Below the pieces are notes generated by a model that had not been told where the DNA came from, did no database searches, and worked only from the letters and a program-made list of their open reading frames with translations. Positions 14,560 to 33,419 of a stretch of DNA of 36,537 bases are shown one piece after another (the stretch's first letter is position 1; each line of letters begins with the position of its first letter). This DNA is from Saprospiraceae bacterium (GTDB lineage: Bacteria > Bacteroidota > Bacteroidia > Chitinophagales > Saprospiraceae), in contig JANQFJ010000317.1 in the NCBI GenBank assembly GCA_028277915.1, forward strand, positions 1 to 36,537, given 5' to 3'. The translations under genes were made by a program, and so were the position numbers.

Positions 14560-17013
14560 ATGCTTCGATTTTTTTTATTTGCAACACTTCTTTTCATATC
14601 GACATCCTGCAATACTTCAAAAAATGCCCAGGGCAACAAGTTAGCTTCCATTGCTTCCAAAACCACTAGAATGCATAAATTGACTGGCTTTTTTAACTTT
14701 TACTGGGATAAAGAAAAAGGCGAAATCTGGCTGGAAATTGAAAAATTTGACACTGAATTTTTATATGTCAATTCACTGGCTGCAGGAGTTGGTTCAAATG
14801 ACTTGGGGCTTGATCGCGGGAAGCTAGGCAAATCCCGCGTTGTTAAGTTTATCCGAATCGGTCCAAAAGTTTTGATGATCCAACCCAATTATAAATTTCG
14901 GGCAGAAAGTGAAAACCCTGACGAATCACAATCCGTCGAAGAAGCCTTTGCACAATCTGTTTTGTGGGGATTTGAGATTGGCAGTGAAAGTGATGGAAAA
15001 GTGCTTGTGAACGCTACAGATTTTTTTTTGAGGGATGCACAAAATGTTAAGACAACATTACAAAACAAAGATCAGGGCAGCTATAAACTGGATCCTTCGC
15101 GAAGTGCAATCTACCTTCCCCGCACAAAAAATTTTCCTGAAAACTCTGAATTCGAAGCTATTCTTACTTTTACAGGGCAACCAAAAGGGAGTTATGTTTA
15201 CCAGGTCGTTCCTACTCCGCAAGCTATTACAGTTCGCCAACACCATTCTTTTGTAAACCTTCCAGATGATGGTTATCAACCCAGAAATTTTGATCCCAGG
15301 AGCGGTTATTACAGTGTTAGTTATTCCGATTATGCCACTCCCATTGACGAACCTCTGGTAAAGCGCTTTATAACGCGACACCGATTGAAAAAAAAGAATC
15401 CTGAACAACCGGTTAGTGAAGCGGTTGAACCAATTATTTATTATTTGGATCGCGGAGCACCCGAGCCTATCAGGTCCGCATTGATTGACGGAGCAAAATG
15501 GTGGAACCAAGCTTTTGAAGCAGCAGGTTATCAAAATGCTTTCCAGGTCAAATTACTCCCGAAAGGAATTGACCCGATGGATATTCGCTACAATCTTATC
15601 CAATGGGTTCACCGATCGACGAGAGGGTGGTCTTATGGAGGTTCAGTCACTGATCCCAGAACAGGCGAAATTATTAAAGGTCATGTTTCACTGGGTTCTT
15701 TACGGGTCAGGCAGGATTTTTTGATTGCTCAGGGATTGTTGGCTCCTTATGAAAAAGGAAAATACGTTTCAAAAGAAATGGAAAAAATGGCATTAGCTAG
15801 GCTTCGCCAACTGTCTGCTCATGAAGTTGGACATACGCTTGGTCTCGCCCATAACTTTGCAGCCAGTGTCAATGACAGGGCTTCTGTAATGGATTATCCG
15901 CATCCTTTTATTACGCTTCAAGCTGATGGGAAATTAAATTTTTCAAATGCTTATGATAATAAAATTGGAGAATGGGATAAAAGGGCGATAATTTATGGTT
16001 ACCAGGATTTTCCAAAAGGAACTGATGAAGCAGAAGCTTTGCGGAACGTTATCGAAGGATCAATTTCAAAAGGATTATTTTATATCTCCGACCAAGATGC
16101 TCGTCCAGCAGGTGGAGCTCATCCGAAAGCGCATCTTTGGGACAATGGAGATGATGCCATTGAGGAACTCCATCGGCTCACAAAAATTCGAGAAGTGGCA
16201 CTTAAAAACTTTGGAAAAAACAATATTCCTGAGCATAGCCCGATGGCAACCCTTGAAGAAGTTTTAGTACCGATTTATTTCGCACATCGATACCAGATTG
16301 AAGCTGTTTCAAAACTTATTGGAGGCGTGGAATACAGCTATTCACTTCGAGGTGACAATCAGGTCACTAACAAAGTTGTTTCGGCAAATAAGCAACGAGA
16401 AGCATTGAAATTGCTGATCGGAACGCTTCAGCCAGAGTTTCTGCAGATTCCAAAAAATGTAGTCGATCTTATTCCACCCAAACCTATTGGTTACAGCAAA
16501 GGAAGAGAAAGCATTAAAGGAAAAACGGGACCAATCTTTGATCCGTTTTCAGCAGCTGAAAATTCAGCAGATGCAGCGCTTTCTTTTTTGTTTAACCCGC
16601 AACGAGCAAGTCGTTTAGTGAAACAAAATGCGCTTGGAGAAAGTGATTTTTCATTGTCAGAAATGATTGAAACACTAATAAATTCGGGCTGGAGCGATCA
16701 CACAGACCCTTACCACACTGAGTTGCAACGCATTGTAGATCATTTGGTTTTAAAACATCTTTTACAACTTGCAGCCAGTACCCGATCTTATGGACAAGTC
16801 AATGGAATTGCTTTACAAGAAATCGAAAACCTTAATGTCTGGTTACAGATGGAATACGGCGATGCAAAAAACAAATCACGGCAAGCCCATTTGCTCAAAG
16901 CTATTGAAGAAGTAGCTTTGTTCAAAAAAGATCCCTACAAATGGAAAATGGAACCCGCTTTAAAAATGCCGGATGGATCACCAATTGGTTGTGGAGGGTC
17001 TATGAATTTTTAA
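14560..17013 (+). CDS. Zinc-dependent metalloprotease lipoprotein (DUF5117/DUF5118, met-zincin)
   Basis: An 817-aa exported protease. It begins MLRFFLFATLLFISTSC, a lipoprotein signal with the lipid Cys at about 17. The ATG at 14560 is chosen because the upstream in-frame TTG (14539) would put charged residues before the signal. An N-terminal DUF5118-like piece and a DUF5117 beta-rich region (about 45-300) precede the metallopeptidase. HEVGHTLGLAHNF at 421-433 (HExxHxxGxxH) and SVMDYPHPF with Met444 as the Met-turn define a zinc met-zincin. Members are common in Bacteroidota and mostly uncharacterised. The stop overlaps the convergent DUF1501 gene by 4 nt. An inverted repeat pairs 14488-14498 with the start codon region. 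Confidence 0.9.
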   Translation: MLRFFLFATLLFISTSCNTSKNAQGNKLASIASKTTRMHKLTGFFNFYWDKEKGEIWLEIEKFDTEFLYVNSLAAGVGSNDLGLDRGKLGKSRVVKFIRIGPKVLMIQPNYKFRAESENPDESQSVEEAFAQSVLWGFEIGSESDGKVLVNATDFFLRDAQNVKTTLQNKDQGSYKLDPSRSAIYLPRTKNFPENSEFEAILTFTGQPKGSYVYQVVPTPQAITVRQHHSFVNLPDDGYQPRNFDPRSGYYSVSYSDYATPIDEPLVKRFITRHRLKKKNPEQPVSEAVEPIIYYLDRGAPEPIRSALIDGAKWWNQAFEAAGYQNAFQVKLLPKGIDPMDIRYNLIQWVHRSTRGWSYGGSVTDPRTGEIIKGHVSLGSLRVRQDFLIAQGLLAPYEKGKYVSKEMEKMALARLRQLSAHEVGHTLGLAHNFAASVNDRASVMDYPHPFITLQADGKLNFSNAYDNKIGEWDKRAIIYGYQDFPKGTDEAEALRNVIEGSISKGLFYISDQDARPAGGAHPKAHLWDNGDDAIEELHRLTKIREVALKNFGKNNIPEHSPMATLEEVLVPIYFAHRYQIEAVSKLIGGVEYSYSLRGDNQVTNKVVSANKQREALKLLIGTLQPEFLQIPKNVVDLIPPKPIGYSKGRESIKGKTGPIFDPFSAAENSADAALSFLFNPQRASRLVKQNALGESDFSLSEMIETLINSGWSDHTDPYHTELQRIVDHLVLKHLLQLAASTRSYGQVNGIALQEIENLNVWLQMEYGDAKNKSRQAHLLKAIEEVALFKKDPYKWKMEPALKMPDGSPIGCGGSMNF

Positions 17014-18455
17014 GCTAAAACGTCCTTTACAACCTTTCCGTGAACATCAGTAAGGCGATAACGGCGACCCTGAAACTTGAATGTAAATCGCTCATGGTCA
17101 ATCCCTAACAAGTGCATCATGGTAGCCTGAAAATCATGAACATGAACTGGTTTGCTTCGAATGTTATATCCAAATTCATCCGTTTCGCCATAAGAAATTC
17201 CTTTTTTCACACCAGCACCTGCCATCCAAATCGTGAAACACCTGGGATGATGATCCCTTCCGTAATTGTCCGGGGTCAATTTACCCTGAGAGTAACAACC
17301 TCTCCCAAACTCTCCACCCCAAATCACCAAAGTATCTTCCAACAGTCCTCTTTGTTTCAAATCCTGGAGCAATGCGGCTGATGCCTGGTCCGTTGATTTA
17401 GCCATAATCTTGATGTCATTTGGCAAATTACCATGTTGATCCCAACCTTGATGGTACAATTGGACAAAACGGACACCGTTCTCAATTAGTTTTCGCGCAA
17501 GCAGGCAATTGGCTGAATAGGTTCCGGGGATTCGGGATTCATCTCCGTACATATCAAAAATATAGTCAGGTTCATTTGAAGTATCCATCGTTTCGGGTAC
17601 AGAAGTTTGCATTCGATAGGCCATTTCATACTGTGCAATTCGGGATTTGATTGCTTCGTTCCCGGTTTGTTGAAATTTGATATCATGTAACTCTGCCAAA
17701 TGATCCAGCATCCTTCTACGGTCGGACTGACTCATTCCAGAAGGGTTATTTAAATAAAGTACAGGGTCTTTTCCAGACCGAAACATGACACCCTGATGCT
17801 CGGATGGCAAAAATCCATTTCCCCATAATTTTGCGTAAAGCGGTTGATCACCTTCTTTTCCTCGGGAGAGTAATACGCAAAATGTTGGAAGGTTTTCATT
17901 ATCACTCCCAAGTCCGTAACTCATCCACGAACCTATGCTAGGACGACCAGCTTGTTGAGAGCCTGTTTGAATAAATGTAATTGCAGGATCGTGATTTATC
18001 GCCTCGGTATGCATTGATTTTATAAAACAAATATCATCGACAATTTGCTGATGATAAGGCATCAGGTCACTCAACCAGGAGCCGCTTTGACCGTATTGCT
18101 TAAACTCATAATTGCCCAAAGCCAATGGAAAGGAACGCTGGTTGGAAGTCATTCCAGTTACCCTTTGGTCGCCGCGAACTGAGGAAGGCAACTCCTCTCC
18201 AAACATTTCTTTAAGTTTTGGCTTGTAATCGAATAATTCCAACTGAGATGGAGCACCGCTTTGAAAAAGATAAATAACTCTTTTAGCTTTTGGAGCAAAG
18301 TGTGGCAATTCAGGATCGAACTTGCTTAATGCATTTTTCAAAAAACCATCACTAACAAGGGAAGAGAGCGCTAAAGAACCAAGACCTAACAAACTATTGC
18401 TTAAAAATGTCCGCCTGTTAAAACTTGAAAAATAATCTTTTTCTGAAGAACTCAT
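17010..18455 (-). CDS. DUF1501 family protein (sulfatase-like fold), Tat-type signal
   Basis: A 481-aa exported protein. The N-terminus has NRRTFLSNSLLGLGSLALSSL, a twin-arginine-like signal. The body has the family landmarks YLFQSGAPSQLELFDYKPKL, SMHTEAINHDPA, RPSIGSWMSYGLGS, HQGWDQHG and WGGEFGR, with GRDHHPRCFTIWMAGAGVKKG near the end. DUF1501 proteins share the alkaline-phosphatase/sulfatase fold by family assignment; substrate and reaction are not established. It starts 2 nt after the stop of the DUF1553 gene (TAGTTATG), so translation is probably coupled. This pair is the standard arrangement in Planctomycetes and some Bacteroidota, which implies joint function. Confidence 0.88.
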   Translation of the reverse strand: MSSSEKDYFSSFNRRTFLSNSLLGLGSLALSSLVSDGFLKNALSKFDPELPHFAPKAKRVIYLFQSGAPSQLELFDYKPKLKEMFGEELPSSVRGDQRVTGMTSNQRSFPLALGNYEFKQYGQSGSWLSDLMPYHQQIVDDICFIKSMHTEAINHDPAITFIQTGSQQAGRPSIGSWMSYGLGSDNENLPTFCVLLSRGKEGDQPLYAKLWGNGFLPSEHQGVMFRSGKDPVLYLNNPSGMSQSDRRRMLDHLAELHDIKFQQTGNEAIKSRIAQYEMAYRMQTSVPETMDTSNEPDYIFDMYGDESRIPGTYSANCLLARKLIENGVRFVQLYHQGWDQHGNLPNDIKIMAKSTDQASAALLQDLKQRGLLEDTLVIWGGEFGRGCYSQGKLTPDNYGRDHHPRCFTIWMAGAGVKKGISYGETDEFGYNIRSKPVHVHDFQATMMHLLGIDHERFTFKFQGRRYRLTDVHGKVVKDVLA

Positions 18456-18457
18456 AA

Positions 18458-21400
18458 CTAATATTTTATAACAAATTCATCAAAATTCATTATTGTAGAA
18501 GCAATAAAGCTACAAGTAGCCAACTCAGTTTTATCCAGTTGCTGATCCACCGGATATTCACCAACACTCAACCAATCCCTCGTTTTTTTTGTGTCGTTTT
18601 CAAAAACTTTAAATTGCTTTTTGTATAGGTTTTTCAAAACTTTTAACTCTTCCTTTTGAGGTATTCTTCCCGTTAAAAGCCTGAAAGCAAAAATAATTTT
18701 TTCATCAATTTCACTTGTTGTTTCTTTCACCATCTTTTCACCCAAAAGCCTTGCTGCTTCAACAAATTGAGGATCATTCATCAAAACCAAAGATTGCAAG
18801 GGAGTCATTGTTTTTTGGCGACGCACCACACAAAAATAACGATCCGGTGCATCAAAATTTAACATTGACGGAGGAGGAGCGCTACGTTTCCAAATCGTGT
18901 AAAGACTTCGGCGATACAAACTGTCACCCTGCTGCTGACTATACTCCACCGCGTTTCGTGTAGCAAGCGCTTTCCAAATTCCCTCTGGCTGATATGGATA
19001 CACACTTGGGCCACCAATTTCTTTAACTAAAAGACCACTTGCTGCAAGTGCCTGATCCCGAATCAATTCTGCCGGAATTCGATGAGCTGGAAAATGCGAA
19101 TACCACAAATTTTGAGGATCAATTTCCTTAACATTCTTTGGCTGATGAGAAGATTGCCGGTAAGTTGAAGAAAGAACAATTTTTTTGATTAAAACCTTAA
19201 TATCCCAGCCATTTTCCATAAAATCAACAGCCAGCCAGTCCAATAGTTCCGGATGAGAAGGCTGATTGCCCTGGCTTCCAAAATCTTCTTGCGTTTCAAC
19301 CAATCCTTTACCAAAAAGTAAAGCCCAAATTCGATTAACAGCTACTCTGGCCGTCAGTGGATTTTTTTGATCCATCAGCCATTTTGATAACCCAAGACGG
19401 TTTTTAGGATATTCCTCTGGGAACGGAAAAAATAGTTCTGGTGTATTTGGAAATACTTTCTCCGCTGGAACATCATAAGCACCTCTTTCGAGCACAAAAG
19501 TAGGACGAGGCTCGCCTCTTTCTTTCATCACCATAACTTCCGGTTCATCAGTTATCAGGAGGTTTTCATCTTCTCTCAGATTAGTGAGTGCTGTAAGGTT
19601 CTTATTAAAATTTTCATTAAAGCGTTTGAGTAAATAGGTTTCCAATAATAGGTTTTCCTGTTTTTCGGAACGCTCATTTTCTGTAATTCTCAAATACATA
19701 GAAAGCGCATTTTTCTGTGAAGAAATGGACTCAACTTCGATTAAAGAAAGTTGTCGGTCATAGATCTTCAATTCATCCATCATTATATTTTCAATGGATT
19801 TTCTTAACTCAATTCCAATCAAAAATGGCAGGTTGGACCAGTTGGTTTTATTTACTCCATGTAAAATACTTTTTTGCAAGTTGTCTTTCAAAAGTTTGGT
19901 TTCAGGCTTTTTACCATTTAAAAAAACCTGAACTCCTGAAGCCTTGCTATTTCCATTGTAGGTTAAAATAATATTGGTCCAGTTGCCTATTTCAATCGTA
20001 TCAATTGTCTGAATATCAATGCAGTTATCCGGCCAGACATGATTAAACTGGAAAGACAAAGTTCCATCTTTATTGAGGTTGCAAAGCCATCCCCGGAATC
20101 CTTCAAAATCCCCGTTCCCTTTTCCAAAAACGGGTCCTTCGATTCCATCTTCGAGTGGTTTTAGCCAAATGCTGACAGAAAAAGGTTGATTCCGGTCGAA
20201 ATCCAAATCACGGTTAAACCGGATACCGGCATCACCTACAAATTGGATTCCTTTGCCATTAACTCCATCGACAAGGCGTACTTTTTCATCTTTGTGCCCC
20301 CAGATATTAGCATCCAATTTGTTTTTTGCGCTATTGAAGTAAGCAATGGTGGAATCTTTAGTGTTGATTTTTTTTGGAGGTTTTTTTTCAAGATTTATCT
20401 GGCTGAGTAGAATTTCTTTATCATATTCAAAATTGAAATCCGCAAGTAGTCCAACCTTCTTTAAAGCAACTTTTTCAGGATTCTTTTGCGCATTTTTCAA
20501 CCACTTTTTAAAGGCCTCAATATATTTTTCCGGTAATAATTCTCGCTCCAATGAATCAATTTGAGGTCGATTTTTTTCCAACTTTTCTTTTACTTCATCA
20601 GAAACCAAGATAGCAGTTGGAGCAGCTTCTCCATTGTATGGAACAATGCCTGCTTCATTGATATTATTAAAAAAAGCAAAAAGGGAATAATAATCCTTCA
20701 TAGAAATCGGATCATATTTGTGGTCATGGCAGCGGGCACATCGCATTGTGAGTCCCATGAAAGCTTTTCCAAAAGTATTCGTGCGGTCAGCAACGTATTC
20801 AACACGATATTCTTCATCGACCACACCTCCTTCCTGAGATTGTGGGTGATTGCGGTTGAAGCAAGTTGCAATCAACTGATCCCGAGTGGGTTTCGGCAAC
20901 AAATCACCTGCTAATTGTTCGGTAACAAACAGGTCATAAGGCATATTTTTGTTAAAGGCATTGATTACCCAGTCGCGATATGGCCAGGTGTTACGCATGC
21001 CGTCATCCTGATAGCCATGTGTATCCGCATAACGAGCCAGATCCAGCCAATCCAGGGCCATTCGTTCACCAAAATGTGGCGAGGACAGCAGACTATCTAC
21101 AGCCTTTTCAACTGCATCTGGTGATTCATCCGCTAAAAACCTATCAATCTCATCAATTGCTGGAGGAAGACCTGTTAGATCGAAACTCAGGCGTCTTATT
21201 TGTGTTTCTTTTGAAGCTATTTCAGATGGAGTCAATCCTGCTTCTTCAATTTTTTGCAAAATGAAATAATCAATTTCGTTGGTTGCCCACTCATCATTTT
21301 TTACATCAGGAACTTCTTTTTTTAAAGGTGCTGTAAAAGCCCAATGTTGCTTCCATTTTGCACCTTGATCGATCCATTTTATGATCAACGCTTTTTCCCG

Positions 21401-21775
21401 AGATGACAAGGAAAGATTTGATTCGGGGGGAGGCATTTTGAAGTTTGGATCATCACTCAAAAATCGATTAACAGCAACACTTTTGTGTGATTTTCCTTTA
21501 ACAAAAGCATACCCGTTACCGCTTTCCAATTTTTCGAAAGCCGTTTCCTCCAAATCCAGTCGCAATCCAGCTTTTCTTGTTTTTTCATCGGGACCGTGAC
21601 ACATAAAACAGCGATCGGAAAGTATTGGACGGATGTGAAAATTGAAATCAATATTTTCGGGTAATTTCGAATAGGCTTCTTCCACACCAAGAGGAAGTTC
21701 ATTTTTGCATGATGCGAAAAGAACGAAAACTATGAAAAAAGGTACTAAGATTCTATAATTCCAGTTTTGAAGCAT
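18458..21775 (-). CDS. Cytochrome-like DUF1549/DUF1553 lipoprotein with inserted LamG domain
   Basis: A large 1105-aa exported lipoprotein (signal about 8-22, lipobox FASC with Cys23). Domain order: planctomycete-type cytochrome C domain (about 45-140) with the heme-binding motif CFMCH at 56-60; DUF1549 (about 160-370) with a second CxxCH, CARCH, at 346-350; a LamG/concanavalin-like domain (about 500-690); and DUF1553 (about 790-1060). Two CxxCH motifs suggest two covalently bound hemes, if both are used. The family is abundant in Planctomycetes, with no firm biochemical role; electron transfer coupled to polymer or sulfated substrate use has been speculated. It is coupled to DUF1501 downstream. 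A hairpin and U-tract end exactly at its ATG. Confidence 0.88.
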   Translation of the reverse strand: MLQNWNYRILVPFFIVFVLFASCKNELPLGVEEAYSKLPENIDFNFHIRPILSDRCFMCHGPDEKTRKAGLRLDLEETAFEKLESGNGYAFVKGKSHKSVAVNRFLSDDPNFKMPPPESNLSLSSREKALIIKWIDQGAKWKQHWAFTAPLKKEVPDVKNDEWATNEIDYFILQKIEEAGLTPSEIASKETQIRRLSFDLTGLPPAIDEIDRFLADESPDAVEKAVDSLLSSPHFGERMALDWLDLARYADTHGYQDDGMRNTWPYRDWVINAFNKNMPYDLFVTEQLAGDLLPKPTRDQLIATCFNRNHPQSQEGGVVDEEYRVEYVADRTNTFGKAFMGLTMRCARCHDHKYDPISMKDYYSLFAFFNNINEAGIVPYNGEAAPTAILVSDEVKEKLEKNRPQIDSLERELLPEKYIEAFKKWLKNAQKNPEKVALKKVGLLADFNFEYDKEILLSQINLEKKPPKKINTKDSTIAYFNSAKNKLDANIWGHKDEKVRLVDGVNGKGIQFVGDAGIRFNRDLDFDRNQPFSVSIWLKPLEDGIEGPVFGKGNGDFEGFRGWLCNLNKDGTLSFQFNHVWPDNCIDIQTIDTIEIGNWTNIILTYNGNSKASGVQVFLNGKKPETKLLKDNLQKSILHGVNKTNWSNLPFLIGIELRKSIENIMMDELKIYDRQLSLIEVESISSQKNALSMYLRITENERSEKQENLLLETYLLKRFNENFNKNLTALTNLREDENLLITDEPEVMVMKERGEPRPTFVLERGAYDVPAEKVFPNTPELFFPFPEEYPKNRLGLSKWLMDQKNPLTARVAVNRIWALLFGKGLVETQEDFGSQGNQPSHPELLDWLAVDFMENGWDIKVLIKKIVLSSTYRQSSHQPKNVKEIDPQNLWYSHFPAHRIPAELIRDQALAASGLLVKEIGGPSVYPYQPEGIWKALATRNAVEYSQQQGDSLYRRSLYTIWKRSAPPPSMLNFDAPDRYFCVVRRQKTMTPLQSLVLMNDPQFVEAARLLGEKMVKETTSEIDEKIIFAFRLLTGRIPQKEELKVLKNLYKKQFKVFENDTKKTRDWLSVGEYPVDQQLDKTELATCSFIASTIMNFDEFVIKY

Positions 21776-24263: not shown

Positions 24264-25916
24264 TTAGTCAAGAGATCGCAACAAATTGATACTTACTGTC
24301 GCCAGATCAGATGGAGGATATTTAGCATGATGATTTGGATCAAGCGATAATCCTGCTGCCTTTGCCGCTTTGATAAACACATCGTATTCCACAATATACT
24401 GATCCGAAAAACCATGTGTGCCGTCGTAGGCCGTTACAGCGGTTTTGCCAATATTTGCGGCTGCCAGCGCTGGCGGGATGGTATGCAATTCGATGACCAA
24501 CAGTCCAAATTTTTTCACATAAGGCGTCCATTTTTTGAAATGTTCTATTAAACTTTGAGTAACATTATCGTTTAAAAGCCTTTCTCCTCGGAAACAAAAC
24601 GCCCCGGTTGAAGACGTGTCTAAAATCTGCGGACTTCGATTGGGTCGATTATAAATTCTATTGTGATCTAAAAAGGAACGGACGTTGAGCAACTCACCCA
24701 AATTGATATTGTAATTTTCTTTCAATTTTTTTGCAAGCTGATCCGGGTCACCAATATCTCCCCAGACCACTTCTCCCCAAATGTCAGCTTCTTTTAAAGT
24801 TTGATCTGTAGAAACAAGGGCTGCCTCGTTGAAATCAGAACCGACGATGAAAAGCGGATGCTCTTCCAGCATTTTTCCGCGCAATGTTTTTGTCCAGATC
24901 ACATCAAAAAGGTGTTCCAAAAACGCCCCATTTCCAGAACCCATGTCCGCAAAACCTTTTGGTTGCTCTTCAATCGGGCGATTGAAGAGGTCAATTACGA
25001 TTTCGTCAATTTTTTTAAAATAGCCTGCATGCGCTCCGCCACTTCCCCAAACATTCATTGTCCGATTGACATGGATTTCAGGACTTGTAGGTGGTCGTTC
25101 CCAGAAAATTCGTGGATTGCCATACAGCAATTCTTTTACAGAATTAAACGTTGGCAGATAAGAAACGGTCACTCCATACGCTGCTGCCCTTTTGGCGAAA
25201 AACATACCTTTTGCTGTAAAACTAAACGTTGTTTCCTGGTTTTCAAACCATTCTTTTTCAGTTAAAAATGAGAAAATCGCAAACAAGGTGTCTGAATCTC
25301 CGCCTATTTCTTTTATATCAAAAACTGGATTCAATTGACCGTAGTCTTTAAAAAATCCTTTCATGCCCAAAGCCACCAAAAACGGTCCTATGATTAATCC
25401 TTCAATATGCCTTAACATCTCTTCCTGGACCGTGTTTGTCATTTCATCATTCGATTTTTCAAGATTCCAGTTTTGTTTTAGTTGGTTTAAAATTGACTGG
25501 AGCTTTTCAGCAGCCCTTTTTTCAAATTTTCCAAAAAGAAATTTCTCAAAATCAATCAGAACCGGAATAAAAGAAACCACTTCCCGATAAATATCAACAT
25601 ATTTAAAAGCACGCTCACCTTTTTCGGTCAAAGTAAATTCAATCTGATTATTGCTCACAATATTTTGAGTAAGCCAACCTTGAGAACACAAAATTCGCAG
25701 TGCGACATTGAGATACCCTTCATTGCCTGTGGTCAAAGATTGAATTTCATTTAAACTGACTGTTTTCTTTTCATCTATTAATTTCAAAATTCCGCCATCC
25801 TTCAAGGCAAGTGATGAAGAAGAAACGGAAAATCCGTCAAGATGTTTGAAGATAATTCCCCGAAGTCTGGAGCGTTCTTCTTTTGGTAGGTCAAAAGACA
25901 TTTTTGGTTTTATCAT
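24264..25916 (-). CDS. Class I SAM-dependent methyltransferase with duplicated N-terminal winged-helix-like module
   Basis: A 550-aa protein without signal peptide. The methyltransferase core is in the C-terminal half: FADMGSGNGAFLEH at 322-335 is the SAM-binding glycine motif, VGSDFN (358-363) is the next acidic strand, and VVWGDIGDP (383-391) fits motif II/III. Before it are two similar segments (about 20-129 and 165-267), each with H(L/I)(D/E)G, a hydrophobic helix, L..A...L...W, FT..(E)KG and a closing L(F/Y)G, i.e. winged-helix-like modules seen in dimerising O/C-methyltransferases. The sequence around NVWGSGGAH and GTHGFSDQYIVEYDVF reminds me of AprA/polyketide-type methyltransferases, but no synthase is present. 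The substrate is unknown. ATG 25916 is kept; a Met at codon 6 is an alternative start. A terminator follows. Confidence 0.8.
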   Translation of the reverse strand: MIKPKMSFDLPKEERSRLRGIIFKHLDGFSVSSSSLALKDGGILKLIDEKKTVSLNEIQSLTTGNEGYLNVALRILCSQGWLTQNIVSNNQIEFTLTEKGERAFKYVDIYREVVSFIPVLIDFEKFLFGKFEKRAAEKLQSILNQLKQNWNLEKSNDEMTNTVQEEMLRHIEGLIIGPFLVALGMKGFFKDYGQLNPVFDIKEIGGDSDTLFAIFSFLTEKEWFENQETTFSFTAKGMFFAKRAAAYGVTVSYLPTFNSVKELLYGNPRIFWERPPTSPEIHVNRTMNVWGSGGAHAGYFKKIDEIVIDLFNRPIEEQPKGFADMGSGNGAFLEHLFDVIWTKTLRGKMLEEHPLFIVGSDFNEAALVSTDQTLKEADIWGEVVWGDIGDPDQLAKKLKENYNINLGELLNVRSFLDHNRIYNRPNRSPQILDTSSTGAFCFRGERLLNDNVTQSLIEHFKKWTPYVKKFGLLVIELHTIPPALAAANIGKTAVTAYDGTHGFSDQYIVEYDVFIKAAKAAGLSLDPNHHAKYPPSDLATVSINLLRSLD

Positions 25917-27583: not shown

Positions 27584-28744
27584 TTACATTTTATAAATTT
27601 CGTCGAGGAGTTTTTGAGTTTCGGAGTAATCTTCCCCTGATTCTTTAGCTATATCAATGGCTTTTTTTGCTGCTTTAATGGCTTTTTTCTTTTTACCAAG
27701 TTTGGAGTACAATGCTGCCAAAGTATCATTGTTGTAAAAATTATTATCCATTTTAATGGATTTTTTTGTCCATTTGACAGCTTGCTTCAGTTGCTTTTTA
27801 TCATCAACAACTGTGTAAAAAGTCCAGGCAATGTCATTTAATTCTCCAGGATCATTGGTCGGGAAATCTTTATAATACTCGATCGCAGATTTTGCAAAAT
27901 TGTCTCGATCACCTGCTTGTCGATAATAGCTCAATCGAAAAGCAGCCGAAAGTTGTTTTGCTTTTTCGGGATAAACCTTCTCGTATAAAGCATCAATTTG
28001 CTCAAGGCTTGAACTTTCAGCGCTATCATTGATTGAATTGAAAATCAGTGTCTGCAATTTTGATGATACTTCAATTTGTCCGAATTTTTTGATATACACA
28101 TCTTTGTTTTCAACAAAATGGTTGAAAAGATCAGAATCCGTATCACTTACATATTTAAAAATAAACTCCAGGTTTTCATCGCTGTTCCAATCATTTTGGG
28201 TTTTCATATAGGCTTCAACGGCTGGTGCGTGGCTTCCGTCATAAGCTTCATAAAGGACTGAAGCATATTTTTTTAAAAAATCGGGATCGCGATCTCCTTT
28301 TTCAAAACGTACCTTCAATGAAGAAATTCGCTTCGATGGATCAAGTGCAGTATTACCTAATTCAATGAATTCAGGGGAATCCTTATATCCCGCTGATCGA
28401 TGGATCAAAGAGCCATCAGCTGCAACAAAAAGCAAGGTTGGATAGACTTTTACATTGTATGTTTGTGCAAAACTCAGCCCTTCCCCTTTTTCCATATCCA
28501 TCTGGACATTGATGAATTTTTCATTATAAAACTCTCCTACATTTTTTTGTGGAAATACATCCCTTGCCATTTTTTTACACGGTCCGCACCATACAGTATA
28601 CGCATCAACAAAAATCAGTTTGTCCTCTTTTTCGGCTTTCGCCAGAATGCTTTCCCAGTCTCCATTACTAAATTCAATCCCTTCTTGCCCAATGGCAACC
28701 GTCATGACCATGGCATAAACAATAACTGAAAGTATTTTCTTCAT
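27584..28744 (-). CDS. Exported thioredoxin-fold protein with C-terminal TPR-like helices (copy 1)
   Basis: A 386-aa protein with a Sec signal peptide (about 4-20, AIG-Q) followed by a thioredoxin-like domain (about 25-130) with WCGPCKKM (active Cys53/Cys56) and the cis-Pro segment VYPTLLF. The rest is alpha-helical, with TPR-like spacing (about 290-380: WTKKSIKMDNNFYNNDTLAALYSKLGKKKKAIKAAKKAI). It probably acts as a periplasmic thiol-disulfide reductase or oxidase; its partner is unknown. The upstream gene, 40 nt away on the same strand, is a paralogue with the same layout. ATG 28744 is preferred over the TTG one codon earlier. CPxC is CGPC, as in thioredoxin. Confidence 0.85.
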   Translation of the reverse strand: MKKILSVIVYAMVMTVAIGQEGIEFSNGDWESILAKAEKEDKLIFVDAYTVWCGPCKKMARDVFPQKNVGEFYNEKFINVQMDMEKGEGLSFAQTYNVKVYPTLLFVAADGSLIHRSAGYKDSPEFIELGNTALDPSKRISSLKVRFEKGDRDPDFLKKYASVLYEAYDGSHAPAVEAYMKTQNDWNSDENLEFIFKYVSDTDSDLFNHFVENKDVYIKKFGQIEVSSKLQTLIFNSINDSAESSSLEQIDALYEKVYPEKAKQLSAAFRLSYYRQAGDRDNFAKSAIEYYKDFPTNDPGELNDIAWTFYTVVDDKKQLKQAVKWTKKSIKMDNNFYNNDTLAALYSKLGKKKKAIKAAKKAIDIAKESGEDYSETQKLLDEIYKM

Positions 28745-28784
28745 CAATTTATGGAATTGTTATTCTTAAAGGTTTAAAAAACAG

Positions 28785-29951
28785 TTAACTCTGTTCAATT
28801 TTTTGGATGAGTTGGTTTATCGCTCGCTGAATATTTTTTTGACCTTCGGCTAATTCTAAAGATTTATTTGCGATTTCGAGTGCATCATCTTTTTTTCCGT
28901 TCATCATTAAAATTTCAGCATAAGTGTAATAATGATCGTATCGTTTTCCAGAATGTGCTGCCTTTTTAGCAATTTTTTCAGCATACCTCATCGCCTTGAA
29001 GTCACTTGAAAAACTGATCATTATTTCTTTTGCGAGTGTGTGCAATCCATCTGTATCATTCTTGATTTCCTTTTTTACGTAAGCATTACAAACTTTGATG
29101 TAATTTTCTGCGTCACCTTTTGCCCGAAAATATTTTAAATCAGCATTCAAACTAAATTCTTCCGCCTTTTGAGGATAGTATGCTTTCATTTTAGATTTTG
29201 CCTCTTCATGAAGGTCATCACTTTTAAATTCAATGGCTTTTTGCGCTGTTTTTTTGCAGGCGTTTTCAATTTTTAGAGCAACAGCTTCTTTTGATTCCAA
29301 TGCTTCGATTTTTGAACGATATTTTATCAACAAATCAAAAATCCGAGAATCTGCTTCAACAACAGCTTCAAAAATGAATCGAAGATTAAATGCTGTTGTG
29401 AGGTTTTCCTGAGATTTTAAATAATCATTTGAAACCTTTAAACTTGGTTTACCTGCTTTATTGAGTGCTTTTACGTACTGAAAAACCATTTCCGGATCAC
29501 GATCTCCTTTTTCATATTTTTCAGCATATTCTCCACTTTTATCTGACTTCCCAAGAACTGATTGACCCAGCTCAATAAATTGTTCTACTTGTCTAGCTCC
29601 TTTTGTTTTATGCACTACTTTTCCATCACCATCAATAAAATAGAGCGTAGGATAGGCCGATACAGGATATTTTTGCTGAAACATTCTCCCGGGCTTTTTT
29701 TCCATGTCAATTTTCAAGTTGATGAAATTTTGATTGAAAAACTCCCCTACGTCACTATCTGTGAAAACATATTTTGACATTTTTTTGCAAGGTCCACACC
29801 AAGTCGTAAAAGCATCCACGAATATAATCTTATCCTGTATCTGTGCCTGCTCCAGTGCTTCCTCCCATGTTCCATGAAAAAAATCAATACCCTGAGCATC
29901 GATTTGATTTAAACTTGAAACTATCAGAAATAATAAGGTTATACACCTCAT
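28785..29951 (-). CDS. Exported thioredoxin-fold protein with C-terminal helices (copy 2)
   Basis: A 388-aa paralogue of the downstream gene. The signal peptide (1-20, ends DAQ) is followed by GIDFFHGTWEEAL, DKIIFVDAFTTWCGPCKKM (Cys52/Cys55), VGEFFNQNFINLKIDMEK, AYPTLYF and YEKGDRDPEM. All of these blocks recur in order in copy 1, including the EKGDRDP linker between the thioredoxin and helical parts. The helical half has diverged more (many Lys/Glu; TPR-like EIANKSLELAEGQKN near the end). Tandem arrangement with a 40-nt gap implies duplication and joint transcription. Both keep a functional-looking CGPC, so neither copy looks degenerate. Confidence 0.85.
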   Translation of the reverse strand: MRCITLLFLIVSSLNQIDAQGIDFFHGTWEEALEQAQIQDKIIFVDAFTTWCGPCKKMSKYVFTDSDVGEFFNQNFINLKIDMEKKPGRMFQQKYPVSAYPTLYFIDGDGKVVHKTKGARQVEQFIELGQSVLGKSDKSGEYAEKYEKGDRDPEMVFQYVKALNKAGKPSLKVSNDYLKSQENLTTAFNLRFIFEAVVEADSRIFDLLIKYRSKIEALESKEAVALKIENACKKTAQKAIEFKSDDLHEEAKSKMKAYYPQKAEEFSLNADLKYFRAKGDAENYIKVCNAYVKKEIKNDTDGLHTLAKEIMISFSSDFKAMRYAEKIAKKAAHSGKRYDHYYTYAEILMMNGKKDDALEIANKSLELAEGQKNIQRAINQLIQKIEQS

Positions 29952-30664: not shown

Positions 30665-30765
30665 ACCTTTTTGCTTTTTAATTATGATAAAACTATACCA
30701 ATCCGAAAAGTATCAACCGATAATTTTCAGGCGACCTTAAACCTCCTGATTTGTCAGCAGTCAAA

Positions 30766-32169
30766 ATGGAAAATATTTTGAAAATGACAGCCATCGAAAA
30801 AATAAAACATCTTTATTGGAGAGCCGGATTTGGAATGAGTCCAAAAGAGTGGAAAAATGCAAGCAACCTTAGCCTGGAACAAGCGGTCAACGACCTTTTT
30901 GATCGAGCAAAATCAATACAAAAAATTAAAGCCCATGTATTTGAGTTTCCCTCTGATCGGCCAAAGAACCTGAGCAAAGAAGAAAAAAAAGCCATTCGAA
31001 AAAATGAGAGAAAACTGGTTTTAAAACAAAATGCAGACTGGGTTCGGCGAATGGCTGATCCATCGGAAAGTGCTTTGCTCGAAAAAATGTGTTTGTTTTG
31101 GCATGGCCATTTTGCATGCACAACCAAGGGTTCGAAAATTGCAAATGACCAATTGAATACTATTCGTAAACATGCTTTGGGCACTTTTGGTGATCTGGTT
31201 CATGCGATGGCAAAAGATGTTTCGATGATCCGATTTCTCAACAACCAACAAAATCGAAAGAACAAACCAAATGAAAATTTTGCGCGGGAACTGATGGAGT
31301 TATTTACCATTGGACGTGGAAATTATACCGAAAATGACATCAAAGAAGCTGCTAGAGCTTTTACCGGATGGTCGAGTAATTTCAAAAGAGATTTTGTTTT
31401 TCGAAAAAATCAACATGATTTTGGAAGCAAAACTTTCATGGGCAAAAAAGGAAATTTCAATGGCGATGAGATCATTGATATTATTTTAGCACGTCCGGAA
31501 ACCGCTGATTTTATCGTTCGAAAAATTTACCGTTTTTTCGTGAACGAACGAGTCGATGAGACAAGAGTCAAATACCTGTCTAAATTATTTTACAATTCAA
31601 ACTATGACATCAAAAAACTGATGCATTCGATTTTTTCGAGCGGTTGGTTTTACTATCCTGGGAATATCGGTACAAAGATAAAATCACCCATAGAATTGAT
31701 GGCTGGAACAATGCGCACGCTTGGGGTAATGTTTGATGAACCAACCACTTTATTCTTCCTAGAAAAAGCTTTGGGGCAGGTTTTGTTCAATCCGCCAAAT
31801 GTTGCAGGATGGCCCGGCGGAAAAGCCTGGATTGATAATTCTACTTTAATGCTACGATTGAATTTGGTCACATATCTATTTCAAGCAGTTGATTTAAATT
31901 TTAAAACAAAAGAAGAATTTGAAAGTGCGCAAAGAAATAAAAGAGTCAGAAGAATAAAAGCTGAGGTCGATTTAATCCCTATGGTTGAATTTTTCAAAAA
32001 CGACCCCCAATCAAGCGTTTTTAAAAACTTGTCTTCTTACTTATTACAGGCAAACTCGAATTTGGAATTAACTGATTTCGACCGCTTTATTATTAAAAAC
32101 AATCAAGATGATTTTGTTAAAACACTGATTTTAAGATTGATGTCATTGCCCGAATACCAAATGTGCTAA
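30766..32169 (+). CDS. DUF1800 family protein
   Basis: A 467-aa protein (from ATG 30766; another ATG at 30784 and a TTG at 30751 are alternatives). Hallmarks of the family are HLYWRAGFGMSP near the start, LFWHGHFAC, NQQNRKNKPNENFARELMELFTIGRGNYTENDIKEAARAFTGW (about 165-207), PNVAGWPGGKAWIDNSTLMLRL and a C-terminal helical tail. The function is undefined; the family usually sits next to DUF1501, as here (59 nt upstream of it). No signal peptide is obvious, which is unusual for an assumed partner of an exported protein, unless export happens through the partner. No exact -7 box was found upstream. Confidence 0.87.
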   Translation: MENILKMTAIEKIKHLYWRAGFGMSPKEWKNASNLSLEQAVNDLFDRAKSIQKIKAHVFEFPSDRPKNLSKEEKKAIRKNERKLVLKQNADWVRRMADPSESALLEKMCLFWHGHFACTTKGSKIANDQLNTIRKHALGTFGDLVHAMAKDVSMIRFLNNQQNRKNKPNENFARELMELFTIGRGNYTENDIKEAARAFTGWSSNFKRDFVFRKNQHDFGSKTFMGKKGNFNGDEIIDIILARPETADFIVRKIYRFFVNERVDETRVKYLSKLFYNSNYDIKKLMHSIFSSGWFYYPGNIGTKIKSPIELMAGTMRTLGVMFDEPTTLFFLEKALGQVLFNPPNVAGWPGGKAWIDNSTLMLRLNLVTYLFQAVDLNFKTKEEFESAQRNKRVRRIKAEVDLIPMVEFFKNDPQSSVFKNLSSYLLQANSNLELTDFDRFIIKNNQDDFVKTLILRLMSLPEYQMC

Positions 32170-32228
32170 GAGAGGAGAGCCAACGGAAGAAGAAAGAGTG
32201 ACTCTTTATTTTAAAATAAAACCAAATC

Positions 32229-33419
32229 ATGAAAAGAAGAGATTTTTTTAAAACATCTGCCCTGGCTTCAACCAGTTTGATGATACCATCATTTTTAAAA
32301 GGATATGTTGGAAAAGGGTTGTTTAGCAGCCGATCAGGGAAAAATTTAGTTGTCATCCAACTATCTGGCGGAAATGACGGACTCAACACGGTTGTGCCTT
32401 TTCAAAATGATATCTACTACCGAAGTCGCCCTACTTTAGGGGTTGATAAAAATAAAGTTTTAAAAATTAGTGATGCACAGGGGCTGAATCCGGTAATGGA
32501 ACCATTGAGACCGTTGTACGACGATGGGTTGATGTGTATCATCAACTCTGTGGGTTATCCAAATCCTGATCGCTCGCATTTCCGCTCGATGGACATTTGG
32601 CACACTGCGAGTTCAAGCGACGAATATCTTTCCACCGGTTGGATTGGCCGATATTTGGACAACCACTGTGAAGGTTGTACACCTCCGTATCATGCGTTGG
32701 AAGCGGATGACAGCTTAAGTTTAGCATTGAAAAGTGTTGAGCAAAATGGGTTTGCAATGAGTGACCCAAAATCTTTGAAAAGAGCCACTAACAATAAATT
32801 TTTAAAAGCCATTTCGAATCATGATCACCGTCACGAAGAAAATGTGGCTTATTTGTATAAAACCATGATTGATACACAGTCGTCTGCAAATTATCTTTTT
32901 GAGCAATCAAAAATTTATCAATCCAAACAGTATTATCCTCAAACGCCTTTTGGTCGAGACCTAAAGCAAATAGCTGAACTCATTACAGCAGAAACAGATA
33001 CAAAGATTTATTATGTCAGTCTGAGTGGTTTTGACACTCATGCTAATCAAAAAAATCAACAGGAACGACTGCTCAGACAATACGCGGACGCGGTTGCTGC
33101 TTTCGTAAAAGATTTAAAACAAAATCAACTGCTGGAGGATACTTTGATCTTGACTTTTTCAGAATTCGGAAGACGTGTAAAACAAAATGGCAGTAATGGC
33201 ACAGACCACGGAACTGCGAATAATTTGTTTTTATTTGGAGGTAAGTTAAAAACTCCTGGTTTTTATAATTCCGCTCCCGATTTAAAAATTTTGGACAATG
33301 GCGATTTGATTTATGAAATTGACTTCAGACGGGTTTATGCTACCATTTTGGAAGACTGGCTGGATGCTGATGTAAAACAAATTTTAAAAGGGAATTTTGA
33401 AAAATTGAATCTCGTTTAA
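32229..33419 (+). CDS. DUF1501 family protein with twin-arginine signal
   Basis: A 396-aa exported protein beginning MKRRDFFKTSALASTSLMIPSFLKG, a textbook Tat signal (RRDFFK). The body has VVIQLSGGNDGLNTVVPF, NPDRSHFRSMDIWHTAS, STGWIGRYLDN, SGFDTHANQ and SEFGRRVKQNGSNGTDHGTANN, the usual DUF1501 conserved blocks (sulfatase/alkaline-phosphatase-like fold, metal-binding Asp/His expected in the last blocks). It is shorter than the 481-aa paralogue at 17010 and its blocks differ, so it is a separate subfamily. It lies in an operon with DUF1800. Its stop overlaps the GH25 stop by 4 nt on the opposite strand. Catalytic activity is not established for the family. Confidence 0.88.
   Translation: MKRRDFFKTSALASTSLMIPSFLKGYVGKGLFSSRSGKNLVVIQLSGGNDGLNTVVPFQNDIYYRSRPTLGVDKNKVLKISDAQGLNPVMEPLRPLYDDGLMCIINSVGYPNPDRSHFRSMDIWHTASSSDEYLSTGWIGRYLDNHCEGCTPPYHALEADDSLSLALKSVEQNGFAMSDPKSLKRATNNKFLKAISNHDHRHEENVAYLYKTMIDTQSSANYLFEQSKIYQSKQYYPQTPFGRDLKQIAELITAETDTKIYYVSLSGFDTHANQKNQQERLLRQYADAVAAFVKDLKQNQLLEDTLILTFSEFGRRVKQNGSNGTDHGTANNLFLFGGKLKTPGFYNSAPDLKILDNGDLIYEIDFRRVYATILEDWLDADVKQILKGNFEKLNLV

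Follow-up and report, generated by a model that had tools for sequence, protein, structure and literature searches.

Locus and Domain Organization

The window, a 36,537-nucleotide stretch of contig JANQFJ010000317.1 from a Saprospiraceae bacterium, carries on its reverse strand a complete open reading frame (24264–25916) that starts with ATG and encodes a protein of 550 amino acids. We annotate it as a stand-alone AprA MT1-like methyltransferase. It matches Pfam families AprA_N (PF23526), WH_AprA (PF23589) and Methyltransf_36 (PF23525), all above the Pfam cut-off and in the expected order. Beyond these three, Pfam found no domain in the open reading frame, which ends at residue 550.

Three parts can be delimited, all on the reverse strand. 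Module 1 (residues 12–128; 25533–25883), a winged-helix copy with a putative lid role, is defined by AprA_N at 18–84, a weak WH_AprA match at 54–130, its secondary structure and a model of the segment folded alone. Module 2 (residues 158–266; 25119–25445), also a winged helix, is defined by WH_AprA at 172–267, by its alignment with MppJ and by an element order repeating that of module 1; in the Pfam scan of the 550-aa protein the match at 172–267 came with a second stretch. The SAM-binding catalytic domain (residues 280–544; 24285–25079) matches Methyltransf_36 at 3.1e-110 and includes a stretch (24399–24665) with the predicted metal-site residues H418, H478 and Q506 and the nearby H501, delimited by invariance and alignment. 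Pfam labels Methyltransf_36 as "AprA MT2-like", whereas the nearest solved relative by sequence is MT1; judged by these matches, the label is misleading for this protein. AprA MT2 itself (6d6y) is a more distant fold match to the full model (Z 18.7).

A mechanically called antisense frame (24801–25265, forward strand, 154 aa) overlaps the methyltransferase and has no support. Elsewhere in the window, two adjacent reverse-strand frames at 27584–29951 (387 and 388 aa) share near-identical WCGPCKKM motifs, look thioredoxin-like by eye and form a tandem gene pair. The reverse-strand region 17010–21775 presumably encodes a DUF1501-type secreted protein with a cytochrome-like partner of 1105 aa, and we take the forward-strand region 30751–33419 to encode another DUF1501-type secreted protein with a 472-aa partner.

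Family Assignment

AprA MT1 and SxtA are metal-dependent C-methyltransferases acting on malonyl units in polyketide loading modules. The window protein matches AprA MT1 at 1.4e-67 over residues 24–543 and SxtA at 4.4e-67 over residues 24–536, with 28–32% identity to the solved AprA and SxtA structures. Its predicted structure, an AF2 model built on 56 sequences (pLDDT 88.7, pTM 0.89), superposes along nearly its whole length on both 6b3a (AprA MT1; Z 33.3, 2.7 Å, 502 residues aligned) and 7ucl_A (SxtA; Z 39.2, 2.6 Å, 505 residues). Outside this group, no structure among the matches listed covers both N-terminal modules at a comparable Z. The AprA-like affinity proposed in the first-pass annotation is thus borne out by the sequence match, the full-length structural match and the order of Pfam domains. 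The same annotation had called the arrangement of two modules plus a SAM domain unusual, and this is not supported: the solved AprA MT1 and SxtA have the same layout, Pfam already holds AprA_N together with WH_AprA, and the full-length structural match makes the two-module layout the known layout of that group. The less ordinary part is that the enzyme stands alone, without a synthase, here and in many other Bacteroidota.

The best structural relatives outside the AprA/SxtA group are MppJ, MrsA and SgvM, which cover only module 2 and the SAM domain. An enzyme of the COMT/MppJ type has a single winged-helix domain followed by a SAM domain, whereas the window protein has two such modules. Module 2 is the equivalent of the N-terminal dimerisation domain of MppJ-type C-methyltransferases.

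Duplication of the Winged-Helix Module

The two N-terminal segments are related, and their internal duplication is real. Paired motifs reported earlier (HLDG 25–28/HIEG 170–173, LALKDGGIL/VALGMKGFF, FTLTEKG/FSFTAKG, VVSFIP/VSYLP and FLFG/LLYG) are all present and colinear on one local alignment of residues 22–129 with 167–266. Self-alignment likewise places the segments above controls: Smith–Waterman comparison within the single protein gave a score of 65 (z 9.1 against 100 shuffles), and hhalign of segment 10–140 against 160–282, using profiles on 56 sequences, gave 35.3 (E 1.8e-5). The hhalign controls stayed lower: 60 column shuffles averaged 12.3 (SD 2.0) and peaked at 16.7, the reversed segment scored 20.9, and five windows from the SAM domain gave at most 16.6 against segment 2 and 14.9 against segment 1.

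Taken by itself and scanned against 24,736 Pfam models, segment 1 has WH_AprA as its second-best match, behind AprA_N (2.1e-6; 28.6 bits for WH_AprA, with the cut-off at 27); HTH_34 (0.0041) and Dimerisation (0.24) follow among the winged-helix families. In the AF2 model the element order H-H-E-H-H-E-E-H-H-H-H, with a long first and a short second helix, occurs twice, at 12–128 and at about 158–266. Modelled alone (51 sequences, pLDDT 87.4), module 1 again adopts a winged-helix fold, so that structure prediction places this fold in both segments and not in one only. The isolated module aligns with MppJ residues 5–139 (Z 11.8, 131 residues, but with a large rmsd of 5.1 Å), with MarR-type cores such as 3bpx_A (Z 10.1, 1.6 Å, 67 residues) and with AprA MT1 residues −6 to 120 (Z 9.9, 3.6 Å, 127 residues). 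Module 2 and the SAM domain (model 158–547) align with MppJ chain residues 5–337, and both modules therefore map onto one reference domain. The profile score, the WH_AprA match of segment 1 and the repeated element order together uphold the earlier suggestion of a duplicated winged-helix module of the dimerisation type.

The duplication is old, as DNA similarity between the two module halves does not exceed chance (best blastn E 0.074). Module-to-module similarity extends through the family, though most members show less of it: over 95 sequences the medians are 47 for the score and 4.5 for z. The window protein stands out unevenly: the C-terminal halves of its modules are the most alike of the 95 (53, against 36 for the next and a median of 20), and its N-terminal halves rank 91st. 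Recent intragenic gene conversion could account for such a contrast, and we consider it very improbable here, since the halves share no DNA similarity beyond chance; alignment also shows that module 1 of both AprA and SxtA ends in the Y-L-x-G motif, which points toward an old state retained rather than newly made.

Independent recruitment of two copies of a common fold, with no duplication at all, also deserves consideration. Winged helices are widespread, module 1 also resembles MarR, and Pfam scans of 51 members place module 1 nearer the O-methyltransferase Dimerisation family than WH_AprA in 28, the window protein being the only one of the 51 whose module 1 matches WH_AprA at E ≤ 0.01. Against this reading, WH_AprA ranks first after AprA_N among all Pfam models in the window protein, the element order in the AF2 model is identical before and after the winged-helix core, the motifs are colinear and the profile score lies far above its controls; we judge independent recruitment to be improbable and regard module 1 as an ancient second copy of a module 2-type domain. 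At a conservation of ≥97%, module 1 has 11 columns (among them D27, G28, N65 and Y68), compared with 30 for module 2 and 87 for the SAM domain; the 11 in module 1 suggest a working part rather than decoration.

Predicted Metal Site

Residues H418, H478, H501 and Q506 are invariant in all 130 stand-alone relatives. Three of them, H418, H478 and Q506, align with His, His and Gln in both AprA MT1 and the SxtA methyltransferase, while H501 aligns with His in AprA and Gln in SxtA. The titles of 6b3b, 7uch and 7ucl name Mn2+ together with malonate or dimethylmalonate. By this alignment, and by analogy with the two-His site of SgvM, H418, H478 and Q506 are likely metal ligands, an assignment that we in part presume from general background on these enzymes.

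All 130 stand-alone members have Asn at position 419, where AprA and SxtA carry Asp, so that the active sites of the two groups differ. Among more distant relatives, L108 has Phe at the position of H478, L107 has Gln at that of H418, and in L109 Gln replaces H478 and Gly replaces Q506; either the proposed ligands vary across the wider family or L107–L109 are misaligned at these positions. V249, likewise present in 130 of 130, aligns with Thr in AprA and Ile in SxtA. An Ile-to-Thr change in SxtA, perhaps at this same position, is said to permit a second methylation (PMC10784701).

Distribution and Lineage

The gene is present in a single copy in its 4.3 Mb assembly, which is 75.7% complete. Its relatives are mostly from Bacteroidota (80 loci kept out of 95). 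Within the same family, 398 genomes were sampled and 86 of them contain the stand-alone enzyme, as do 16 of 59 relatives in a further sample; it also occurs in Aquimarina and other Flavobacteriaceae. AprA_N was found in 23 of 296 genomes of the phylum (21 over the cut-off) and Methyltransf_36 in 3 of 99 genomes of the class (2 over the cut-off); taken together, the family, phylum and class counts indicate a patchy occurrence.

Three same-genus homologues (L084, L085 and L087) are 63% alike mutually and 51–52% alike to the window gene, which the tree groups with L017 and L110 at 0.837. The window gene is a divergent lineage. Recent horizontal transfer of this copy was considered and provisionally set aside; the GC content of the gene is 0.393 and that of the window 0.378.

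Stand-alone homologues L005, L008, L010, L011 and L081 lie on contigs labelled Thermoanaerobaculia, Cyanobacteriota and Neomarinimicrobiota; as L008 and L010 are 71–75% identical to the Bacteroidota homologues L002 and L012, transfer or mis-binning is likely. One genome holds a second copy (G482:C286:13265-14215), 36% identical and spanning residues 7–322 only, with a full-length copy elsewhere. Six matches were found in plasmid records, all below 60% identity, and none in phage records. A Burkholderia stagnalis plasmid (L109, 5632–7770) encodes a 713-aa protein with a partial Methyltransf_36 next to a ketoacyl-ACP synthase III and an AMP-binding protein, and a Streptantibioticus plasmid (L107, 11599–14529) has a 977-aa frame in which Methyltransf_36 is followed by a second methyltransferase domain.

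Genomic Neighbourhood

A conserved neighbourhood was sought as a clue to the substrate and none was found across taxa; the neighbours in the window, a DPP IV-type peptidase and a DUF2147 protein, do not recur at the loci of relatives. The methyltransferase gene is immediately preceded by a DUF1456 gene in the same orientation at 35 loci (within L016–L077, almost all from Aquimarina), usually at a distance of 60–90 bases, and the two may form an operon. A VOC/glyoxalase-type gene is found near the methyltransferase in 11 flavobacterial loci, in eight of which (L022, L026, L031, L033, L037, L053, L055 and L075) it is directly downstream, overlapping or within 3 bases.

Members of the Bacteroidota-centred subfamily are fused to neither a GNAT decarboxylase nor a carrier protein or synthase. 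The first-pass remark that no synthase is near holds within the window and does not extend to the genome, where a type I synthase locus (contig C98 of the same assembly, G000:C98, L136) encodes KS-AT-ACP repeats, KS-FabA and KR-DH proteins; this locus, which we take to be PUFA-synthase-like, has no visible link to the methyltransferase. A dedicated polyketide synthase was rejected as a partner: besides the unlinked C98 locus, the marker PF16197 occurs in 8 of 20 methyltransferase-bearing genomes, and a synthase is thus not required. A free GNAT partner fared no better, with no AprA-type GNAT in the same genome at E ≤ 0.001 and weak matches in 2 of 10 genomes; given the 75.7% completeness of this genome, a partner may be missing from it.

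Proposed Function

We lean, with modest confidence, towards a separate, unfused class I SAM methyltransferase akin to AprA MT1 and SxtA MT, performing metal-dependent C-methylation of a malonyl-type substrate with module 1 as a lid. The C-terminal domain would bind SAM and, most probably, one metal ion (Mn or Fe) through H418, H478 and Q506. This metal would hold the carbonyl or carboxylate of malonyl-ACP or malonyl-CoA and promote its enolisation, after which one or two methyl groups would be transferred from SAM to the alpha carbon. The target may be a malonyl-type thioester or a similar enolisable acid. Module 2 is the winged-helix domain usual across the COMT/MppJ superfamily, and module 1 may act both as a lid and, within the one chain, in place of the domain of a partner subunit. 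As no GNAT decarboxylase is fused to the enzyme, its methylated product would be handed on undecarboxylated. The predicted fold, the duplication, the family, the residue conservation and the stand-alone state are results of the analysis, whereas the metal, the substrate, the number of methylations and the role of module 1 are inferred.

The substrate might instead be a free alpha-keto acid or another small enolisable acid, methylated by metal-dependent MppJ-like chemistry. The structures that match best after AprA and SxtA are those of MppJ, MrsA and SgvM, neither a carrier protein nor a synthase is conserved nearby, and a free acid would explain the absence of a fixed partner. These enzymes match only from about residue 153 onwards, without module 1, and share 12–17% identity with the window protein against 29–32% for AprA and SxtA, so that we hold this to be a serious though unlikely candidate. 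A further departure would keep the AprA fold with changed chemistry, namely O- or N-methylation of a small molecule: the invariant N419 in place of Asp fits such a change, as does the sharing of the module 2 and SAM fold by many COMT-type O-methyltransferases, while retention of the likely metal residues in 130 of 130 members speaks against it, and we give this option a low likelihood.

If malonyl-type C-methylation is the correct reading, a reaction of a few natural-product synthases would have a stand-alone counterpart, a small separate C-methylation enzyme, and the two modules would offer a clear-cut example of module duplication converting a homodimer into a single chain. More speculatively, and at long reach, we envisage a widespread synthase-free Bacteroidota branch that uses SAM to convert malonyl thioesters directly into methylmalonyl- or dimethylmalonyl-type building blocks, independently of B12, and feeds them into a lipid or metabolite; its members would be one-chain "frozen dimers", the duplicated winged helix replacing the partner subunit.

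Comparison with Known Systems

AprA MT1 from the loading module of apratoxin A synthase (6b39, 6b3a, 6b3b and 7uch) superposes on model residues 11–550 with Z 30–33 and shares with the window protein both N-terminal modules, the likely metal residues and the His at 501. It differs in having Asp at the position of N419 and in being part of a polyketide synthase, where it is joined to a GNAT domain, whereas the window protein stands alone. The usual fusion is also seen in a synthase encoded on a Janthinobacterium plasmid, a PKS-embedded relative with AprA_N, WH_AprA, Methyltransf_36, GNAT, carrier and KS-AT domains.

The SxtA methyltransferase (7uci, 7ucl) matches model residues 16–550, carries Gln at the position of H501 and, according to the title of 7uci, is fused to a decarboxylase, a fusion that the window protein lacks. 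Its product is reported to be methylmalonyl-ACP (PMC10784701).

The alpha-keto-acid C-methyltransferases MppJ, MrsA and SgvM resemble residues 153–549 through one winged helix and a SAM domain, having a single N-terminal module where the window protein has two. SgvM is reported to be a homodimer in which H244 and H296 bind the metal, a Lewis acid in the reaction (PMC10502145), and this two-His site resembles the predicted His pair of the window protein.
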